A stretch of 57,648 nt of DNA from Lentilactobacillus rapi DSM 19907 = JCM 15042 (GTDB lineage: Bacteria; Bacillota; Bacilli; Lactobacillales; Lactobacillaceae): positions 1 through 57,648 of the forward strand of contig NZ_AZEI01000013.1 of NCBI RefSeq assembly GCF_001436255.1, in the 5' to 3' direction. Of this stretch, positions 34,169 to 35,543 are shown one piece after another (within the stretch, counting starts at the first letter, position 1; each line of letters begins with the position of its first letter). The notes beneath the pieces were generated by a model. That model was not told the DNA's origin and did not search any database. It was given only the letters and a program-made list of their open reading frames with translations. A program made the position numbers and the translations under genes.

Positions 34169-34629
34169 ATGATTACGTCCCTTCAATGTCCAATTTATGA
34201 TGGCTCTCATTATATATATACGGATTAAGTTCAGTCTGTTTTGAGTATATCTCTGGTAAAAATTGAAAGCAATCGCGGAATGACGCTCAGTCAAAATTTT
34301 TTCAACCACAAAGACGAGCCTCAAAGTTGGCAAGAGAAGGGCATCATCATGATTTCCTTTTAATAGGTACTCGCGGTATTCGTTAAAATGGCTATTTACG
34401 AAAAAACAATGGATATTTATAAAATAATTAACCGAATAGAATTGCAATAATTTTCAAAAGAAGTTCAGAATTTTGCTAAATGATAATGTTAAAATTTACT
34501 AAAATATCACTTTTCGACACCATTTATCGTAAAATAACCATTGATTATAAAATTGAAATCGCTTACACTATAAACTAAAGTTAATTAATAAAAAACTCAT
34601 TTATAAAATCTGAAAGAGGGACATTTAAA
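34169..34629. other. Non-coding divergent region between sbcD and the HPr-like gene
   Basis: AT-rich. For sbcD there is a TATAAT on the minus strand (34214-34209), 41 bp before the ATG. No LexA box is seen for sbcDC. On the other side are a perfect cre box (34554-34567) and a TATAAA (34570-34575) ahead of the GAGGGAC ribosome binding site for 34630. Confidence 0.5.
34554..34567. promoter_or_regulatory. cre box (CcpA site) upstream of the HPr-like gene
   Basis: TGAAATCGCTTACA matches every defined position of the consensus TGWAANCGNTNWCA. It lies directly before a TATAAA -10-like element, a position at which CcpA binding would normally repress. Confidence 0.75.
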
Positions 34630-34920
34630 ATGTTAGAAAAAGAATATCGAGTTAATGCCGAAACCGGAATTATGGCTAGACCTGCCACCCAGCTGGTCAT
34701 GGTCGCAAACGAATATCAAGCAAAAATCACTGTTTTTTACCGTCAGCAACGCGCCGACCTCAAGTCAATCATGGGCGTAATGTCGCTTGGAATTCCTAAT
34801 GGCAGCGACATCCGGATTCAAGTAGAAGGCGAAGATGAAGTTGAAGCCATGAATGGGATTGATGAACAGCTGAAGACTGAAGGACTGGTTGAAGATGTAG
34901 ACATGAGACGGGAAGCTTAG
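34630..34920 (+). CDS. HPr-family protein lacking His15 (Crh-like)
   Basis: A 96-residue HPr-fold protein. HPr passes phosphate from enzyme I to sugar permeases through His15. Here the site reads ETGIMARPAT, so residue 15 is Met (codon ATG, read directly) and the PTS role is impossible. The regulatory site is kept: LKSIMGVMSLG places Ser46 in the exact motif phosphorylated by HPr kinase, with the Met/Ile residues used for CcpA contact. This is the logic of Bacillus Crh (Gln15, Ser46), a corepressor only. A short acidic/basic tail (EDVDMRREA) is extra. A perfect cre box lies upstream; no ptsI is adjacent. It might also be a decaying HPr copy, but the frame and the rest of the core are intact. 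Confidence 0.85.
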   Translation: MLEKEYRVNAETGIMARPATQLVMVANEYQAKITVFYRQQRADLKSIMGVMSLGIPNGSDIRIQVEGEDEVEAMNGIDEQLKTEGLVEDVDMRREA

Positions 34921-35048
34921 AAATGACTTTTCGTCAATTAAGTTTCATGATGATCAAATATAATCACTAGCTATTGAGTTGTTTTGTTACTCAATTAACG
35001 AGTGACTTTTGGGTTGTTTTCCAATGAGTTAGCTAAAGGAGATTCCTC

Positions 35049-35543
35049 ATGCCCACCACCAAACTTTCCGTTCCACTCATTACCCAGCGGCCAGAGTTAC
35101 CGACCGGCTGTGAAATTACGGCCGTGACAATGATGCTGCGGTATGCTGGCGCAAATGTCGATAAAGTTTCACTTGCTCATGAAATGCCGTACGACCACTT
35201 TGATCCAAATAAGGGATTTGTAGGAGATCCATTTACCGAGGATGGGAATAGTATCTATCCACCGGCGTTAATCGAGCTGGTTACGAAATACGCTGGGAAG
35301 GCTGTCAACTTAAGTGGTCAGCCAATTAACAAATTGAGCGAGTACCTTGCCAATACGAAACATCCGATTGTCACCTGGGTCGGTCAATTTGACGGCTTTA
35401 ATACCCATGCGCTGATTATGACCGGATTTGATGATAAAGTGATCTACTATAATGATTGTTGGACCGGTGAACAAACATCAATGCCAATTTCAGCTTTTGA
35501 AGCAATTCGAAATCATCAACAAAAGCTGGCGTTGAGTTATTAG
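35049..35543 (+). CDS. C39-like cysteine peptidase family protein
   Basis: A 164-residue papain-like protein of the Peptidase_C39_2 type. The motif LPTGCEITAVTMMLRYAG holds the candidate nucleophile Cys and upstream Gln (ITQRPELPTGCE), and NTHALIMTGFDD supplies the His, followed by YYNDCWTGE with the candidate Asn/Asp. No signal peptide is visible, so either the product is cytoplasmic or exported without a classical signal. AAAGGAGA precedes the ATG. Substrate unknown. Confidence 0.78.
   Translation: MPTTKLSVPLITQRPELPTGCEITAVTMMLRYAGANVDKVSLAHEMPYDHFDPNKGFVGDPFTEDGNSIYPPALIELVTKYAGKAVNLSGQPINKLSEYLANTKHPIVTWVGQFDGFNTHALIMTGFDDKVIYYNDCWTGEQTSMPISAFEAIRNHQQKLALSY

Follow-up and report, generated by a model that had tools for sequence, protein, structure and literature searches.

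Why should a bacterium with an ordinary HPr keep a second one that lacks the very residue on which phosphotransfer depends? HPr needs His15 to accept phosphate from EI, and a gene that encodes an HPr-like protein with methionine at this position lies in the window, i.e. the whole stretch of 57,648 nucleotides analyzed here (Lentilactobacillus rapi DSM 19907 = JCM 15042, contig NZ_AZEI01000013.1). We therefore asked what this protein is, how long it has been kept, how its gene is likely controlled, and which function is compatible with the residues that have been retained and lost.

A histidine-less paralogue of HPr

The open reading frame at 34630-34920 on the forward strand encodes 96 residues and reads GIMARPA and LKSIMGVMSLG. 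Position 15 is Met (codon 34672-34674), where ptsH has His, and Arg17, Pro18 and the complete loop LKSIMGVMSLG with Ser46 (codon 34765-34767) are intact. The protein matches PF00381 with 89 bits (cut-off 23) and TIGR01003 with 81.9 bits (cut-off 47.9), and together with the reading of the frame this bears out the initial annotation, which had described an HPr paralogue with Met15 and the Ser46 motif. The HPr equivalog model NF010352 is matched by all 11 Met15 proteins that we found, the window protein scoring 106.5 bits, below the cut-off of 110, and NF010354, which we take to be the Crh model, gives 66 bits, below its cut-off of 123. An AF2 model calculated from the single sequence (best of five, with a mean pLDDT of 82; the other four reached 52-69) has the strands and helices in the order of HPr. 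Its best fold match is 1kkl_H, i.e. HPr bound to the HPrK/P of L. casei, and the closest solved structures are HPr chains, the best Crh chain ranking 32nd. The protein shares 47% identity with the HPr of its own genome, and a gene whose product is 97% identical to the window protein is carried by Lentilactobacillus dabitei IMAU92037.

The last 8 residues (34894-34917) form a C-terminal extension that is modeled with low confidence and is absent from all 34 canonical sequences of our site table (see below). Across the Met15 clade, the extension has 7, 8 or 10 residues, and the proteins are 95, 96 or 98 residues long, as compared with 88 in ptsH. A Shine-Dalgarno-like AGAGGG (34615-34620, forward strand) precedes the ATG by 9 bases, and similar purine-rich sites are found in the relatives. 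The idea that Met15 might be an internal start codon was set aside because the relatives conserve both the preceding residues and the ribosome site upstream.

Distribution and genomic context

That the genome might have no normal ptsH is ruled out by a His15 ptsH on another contig (G000:C59:5935-6174), and the check for such a gene was positive in all 24 Lentilactobacillus genomes. A second HPr is present in 13 of the 24, and His15 is found in none of these second copies: residue 15 is Met in 11, Arg in one (G013; loci L056 and L077) and Thr in one (G018; locus L065, near 7167), and Ser46 is kept in all 13. The 126 other genomes of the same search gave one HPr each. With a profile of the Met15 proteins, 396 of 397 genomes of a family sample gave a match, the 11 Met15 genes scoring 161-173 bits and the next gene 121.6, and among 398 genomes of the class the window gene scored 171 bits and the next 120. 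All next-best loci that were fetched (19 from the family, 9 from the class) have His15, with the limitation that both lists cover best places only, and a very different His-less copy could be missed. Genome G236 (genus g16) has a second HPr at L118 in which His15 is kept (GLHARPVSL).

The Met15 gene and its promoter occur in three genomic places, i.e. next to sbcCD-like genes (four species), at a site that is recognized by shared upstream families (six), and at a third place in G012. As the core and the position of the cre box described below are kept across all three, gene and promoter evidently stay together. An IS30-type transposase (named by eye) adjoins the Met15 gene in G012, which makes one relocation plausible. 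No neighbor family is common to all 13 second copies, the neighbors having been clustered and not named by family search. We also considered a plasmid gene and rejected this: 90 plasmid records match, the best place of each with less than 60% identity, and there is no Lentilactobacillus among the best 25 of these 90.

Models for HPrK/P, CcpA and EI were matched above cut-off in all 24 genomes of the genus. The HPrK/P search can miss genes, since it gave no match in the B. subtilis control, but it found all of them here. The genes ptsH and ptsI are adjacent in 21 of the 24 genomes; in the window genome there is no ptsI behind ptsH, and the same is seen by coordinates in G011 and G013. The only full EI of the window genome is encoded at C36:86396-88090, in a PTS operon that also contains transketolase-like and ribose-5-phosphate-isomerase-like (rpiA-like) genes, which were named by eye. 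With EI located inside another PTS operon, the normal HPr of this genome may itself have a mainly regulatory task by now, which speaks against the role proposed below for the Met15 protein. In G004, three EI genes exceed the family cut-off (C90:9444-11138, C90:21663-23357 and C39:5772-7457), and G014 has two.

Descent and selection of the Met15 gene

The 11 Met15 proteins form one clade in the HPr tree, which took in 10 of 13 further canonical loci, and the support (92/80) is moderate because the protein is short. The clade is also seen when residues 15-17 are left out (91/61; this tree is without the 13 g20 proteins and L118), and when Crh is added (94/72; with 9 of the 24 genus ptsH proteins). 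In the latter tree, the Arg15 copy joins the Met15 proteins at 97/91, but it does not do so in the 92/80 tree, where long branches met. The Thr15 copy was placed, unresolved, among ordinary HPr.

In a tree of CcpA and HPrK/P, in which the CcpA of G019 lacks its N-terminus, all Met15 species fall into one group of 15 (support 92/98). The Met15 gene is present in 11 of these 15 species; G016, G003 and G019 have no second copy, and G018 has the Thr15 copy. Outside this group, eight genomes of the genus are without a second copy, and one has the Arg15 copy. The Met15 label needs three changes on this tree, which could be two losses after a single gain at the base of the group or earlier, and a transfer is conceivable as well. 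The tree of the Met15 gene has the same two halves as the species tree, and this, together with the presence in 11 of 15 species, argues for an old gene. As it is absent from several species, it must be dispensable, and draft assemblies may hide some copies.

The Met15 gene is under purifying selection. In 10 of the 25 within-group pairs, dN/dS is 0.07-0.21, several of these values being rough because dS exceeds 2, and the remaining 15 pairs are saturated at synonymous sites. The initial annotation had proposed to examine whether Met15 and Ser46 are conserved while synonymous changes build up, and this is indeed the case: His15 occurs at none of the 11 orthologous loci found in relatives, and no second copy has lost Ser46, so that none of the three refuting conditions named there, a missing ptsH being the third, applies. 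A recent mutation or a pseudogene is ruled out by the methionine in 11 of 11 orthologues, the low dN/dS, and the saturated dS elsewhere. The protein changes faster than that of ptsH.

Conserved and remodeled residues

The site table compares the 11 Met15 proteins with 34 canonical rows (24 ptsH of the genus and 10 others), all of which have His15. Residues 44-52, R17, P18, A19, T20, L22 and V23 are identical to ptsH in all Met15 proteins, and at residues 15, 21, 24, 27, 28, 56, 62, 80 and 87 the two sets share none. We take the changed residues of helix 1 to be the face that is used toward EI and EII, and the kept Ser46 loop to be what HPrK/P and CcpA read. The remodeling at 21, 24, 27 and 28, of which the basic Lys28 is presumably an EI contact, argues against a strong EI binding by the Met15 protein. 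Residues 21 and 24 are presumably also near the face that contacts CcpA and HPrK, and their change could weaken these contacts as well.

A cre-like operator in the promoter

The promoter candidate upstream of the gene consists of a -35-like hexamer TTGATT (34541-34546; TTGATT in 10 and TTGAAT in one of the 11 Met15 genes) and a -10-like hexamer TACACT (34564-34569; TACACT or TACAAT in 11 of 11), both on the forward strand, with a spacing that is constant at 17 bp in all 11 genes. A consensus promoter scan did not list this pair and gave 34360-34389 and 34553-34581, i.e. two sites against a shuffle mean of 2.7. The -10-like hexamer overlaps the cre-like operator TGAAATCGCTTACA (34554-34567, forward strand), which is the only place in the window that matches the consensus TGWAANCGNTNWCA (this is palindromic and thus counted on both strands). 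By chance, 0.12 matches would be expected in the window, and 2 of 100 shuffles reached two. The whole genome (2.85 Mb) contains 29 distinct perfect cre sites, with 19 on the forward strand as compared with 3 for the reversed control, and from the genome-wide frequency about 0.0015 perfect sites are expected within 150 bp of a given start. A site of this consensus also precedes ccpA in the window genome, at a distance of about 100 bp.

The perfect cre box that the initial annotation had placed directly upstream of the gene is thus perfect, but it is less close than claimed, as it starts 76 bp upstream of the ATG. Its conservation needs to be differentiated as well: the core CGCTTACA is invariant in all 11 Met15 genes, with a fixed place in the promoter 60-71 bp before the start, whereas only 4 of them match the full 14-base consensus exactly, the remaining 7 deviating from it at one position. 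Cre-like boxes also precede the Thr15 gene (one mismatch) and the Arg15 gene (two). Of the 24 regions of 300 bp upstream of ptsH, none has the exact 14-mer, one has it with one mismatch, and four have a looser 15-base form with one mismatch.

As the box overlaps the -10 hexamer, bound CcpA should repress the Met15 gene. The cre would then give an autorepression that fits the feedback loop suggested initially, but RbsR or a further member of the LacI family could be the one that reads the box. The best reading of the promoter sequence is that the Met15 gene is itself under catabolite control. Downstream of the gene, a terminator-like hairpin with a T-rich tail is predicted at 34986-35016 on the forward strand (by consensus scan only; one found against a shuffle mean of 0.4), and 35049-35543 of the window encodes a C39-family peptidase-like protein of 164 aa (PF13529). 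A C39 peptidase is directly downstream in 3 of the 13 second-copy loci, and 5.4 kb off in a fourth. With the hairpin present and the C39 gene mostly not adjacent, the Met15 gene is probably transcribed alone.

Proposed role and alternative explanations

Taking the sequence evidence together, we consider it fairly probable that the Met15 protein, uncoupled from the PTS and regulated at Ser46, is a partner of HPrK/P and CcpA and acts in a Crh-like manner. The long conservation of a His-less copy that keeps Ser46 suggests that it serves the carbon-control signal only. Lacking a histidine at position 15, the protein would not be able to take phosphate from EI. The whole Ser46 loop and Arg17 are kept, and HPrK/P should therefore phosphorylate Ser46 at high sugar flux. 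This phosphorylation would be driven by FBP and ATP, and the Ser-P form would bind CcpA as a corepressor. Normal HPr can be held in the His-P form, and His-P hinders the phosphorylation of Ser46. A copy that is never His-P would avoid this conflict and could report ATP and FBP whatever the PTS does. Lentilactobacillus is heterofermentative and lives largely on pentoses and other non-PTS sugars, and a PTS-blind reporting would suit heterofermenters on such substrates. As long as CcpA is idle, the Met15 promoter would be open, and the protein would build up on poor or non-PTS sugars. The stored protein would permit a fast response when the flux rises, and CcpA would then shut the gene off. It is odd for a main corepressor that its own cre would shut it off in glucose. 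Co-adaptation of these partners is not apparent: no CcpA column separates the species with the Met15 gene from those without it, and the two sets of HPrK/P are told apart only by end gaps and by a single column in the C-terminal tail, which is variable.

A more far-reaching view, which we put forward tentatively and with some doubt, is that a His-less HPr arose in Lentilactobacillus independently of Bacillus and informs CcpA of the sugar flux without regard to the PTS. It would be produced on pentoses or poor sugars until the repression to which it contributes silences its gene. The family would moreover have retired the HPr histidine more than once (in the Met, Arg and Thr copies, and in the far more degenerate copy of g20). 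If this is true, giving up phosphotransfer would be a route by which carbon-control proteins arise repeatedly in PTS-poor heterofermenters. Heterofermentative lactobacilli are thought to rely little on the PTS, and the Met15 protein may have a bearing on their relaxed sugar hierarchy.

What alternatives exist for this role? In case of the promoter, the protein could be Crh-like, with the box being read mainly by another LacI-family regulator, e.g. RbsR, and the gene would then be induced by ribose or pentoses and not be autorepressed by CcpA. This is somewhat unlikely, since 4 of the 11 sites fit the CcpA consensus exactly and the same consensus precedes ccpA, but it would agree with the 13 matches to the CcpA model in the window genome, only one of which is above cut-off. 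In L. oligofermentans, the predicted cre of ptsH is fully overlapped by a predicted RbsR site (PMC4972977), and in Geobacillus, crh is elevated on ribose (PMC13130090). This alternative touches the promoter only and is compatible with the best explanation for the protein, namely a Ser46-regulated partner of HPrK/P and CcpA. A different partner is assumed if the Ser-P form binds non-PTS transporters and acts in inducer exclusion or expulsion as a controller of sugar permeases. For this purpose the Ser46 loop would be equally suited, and expression would fall into the time when secondary sugars are consumed and their permeases are present. Such a binding has reportedly been proposed for HPr of Lactobacillus brevis, and an inducer exclusion by HPr(Ser-P) has reportedly been described in a heterofermenter. 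However, no neighbor family accompanies all 13 second copies, and the kept residues include the Ser46 loop that, as we presume, CcpA reads, which makes a permease controller improbable. A decoy that binds EI, EIIA, HPrK/P or CcpA without phosphate transfer, and thus damps the PTS flux or catabolite repression, appears decidedly improbable. A protein that has lost His15 but largely preserves the fold does resemble a dominant-negative, and since its synthesis would coincide with relief from CcpA repression, damping could maintain that relief. Against this, the helix-1 face at 21, 24, 27 and 28, including Lys28, is remodeled, and for a pure EI decoy there would be no need to keep Ser46 and its loop exactly as they are.

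It is very unlikely that the Met15 protein is an orthologue of Bacillus Crh, be it inherited or transferred. A grouping of Met15 with Crh is left standing by the AU test (p 0.176), but descent from Crh is disfavored by the scores, as the match to PDB sequences is 82 bits for HPr and 48 bits for Crh. Moreover, with the profile of the Met15 proteins only the 11 Met15 genes exceed 122 bits in the family sample and only the window gene does so in the class sample, and residue 15 is Met, not Gln. The crh operon has yvcJ, yvcK and whiA as neighbors, and these are not at the window locus, where sbcCD-like genes (by eye) and the C39 peptidase are found; the other loci differ as well, not all of their genes being named by family search. 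Hardly conceivable is a decaying ptsH copy without function, for which only the faster protein change and the absence from some species would speak, whereas dN/dS is well below 1 where computable, sites are saturated elsewhere, and promoter and operator are kept in 11 of 11 genes.

Comparison with HPr, g20 proteins and Crh

The Met15 protein resembles the HPr (ptsH) of Lactobacillaceae in its fold and in the Ser46 loop, which is identical over residues 44-52. It differs by the absence of His15, the changes in helix 1 at 21, 24, 27 and 28, Pro56, and a gene position that is not beside ptsI. A second HPr-like protein in genus g20 (13 of 15 genomes, loci L119-L131) is of the same family and also lacks His15, with a Ser46 that was aligned by eye. 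Unlike in the Met15 protein, its active site is completely gone (GLTGD-type, without Arg17 and Pro18), Ile47 is replaced by Ser, and it forms a separate clade; a cre within one mismatch was found upstream of none of the 13 genes. This His-less protein hints that the HPr histidine was retired more than once in the family.

The closest functional parallel is Crh of Bacillus subtilis and Geobacillus, which also is a paralogue next to a normal ptsH, lacks His15, keeps the Ser46 loop and Arg17, and is accompanied by HPrK/P and CcpA in the genome. Crh has Gln15, as described for Parageobacillus (PMC9631020), whereas the Lentilactobacillus second copies have Met, and once each Arg and Thr. Unlike Crh, the Met15 protein is nearer to HPr by score, carries the C-terminal extension of 7-10 residues, and has a promoter that is overlapped by a cre, and the neighboring genes are different. 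Methylglyoxal synthase (TIGR00160), the control of which is a known task of Crh, was found in 0 of the 24 genus genomes by a search that matched 7 of 14 controls, including B. subtilis. The Met15 protein is therefore unlikely to have this task, and we dropped it as a candidate function. In the titles and abstract openings of the listed literature on Crh, HPr and CcpA in lactobacilli or Lentilactobacillus, from which most subscription journals are outside coverage, there was no report of a Met15 protein.

The separate evolution from Bacillus Crh that had been suggested initially is favored insofar as the scores point to a lactobacillus HPr, but it is not enforced by the AU test, which leaves the Crh grouping in place. 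A separate origin is thus probable from the sequences, and we file the protein as a Crh-like variant and not as Crh, because descent rests on this AU result and both the crh neighborhood and the MgsA partner are absent. According to a 2026 paper, it was unknown why HPr and Crh overlap, and for Geobacillus it is proposed there that CcpA represses on ribose by way of Crh and not of HPr (PMC13130090). The Met15 protein of Lentilactobacillus would add a second, probably separate case to that of Crh, and the two could then be compared with regard to the question whether the loss of His15 frees Ser46 signaling from PTS traffic.
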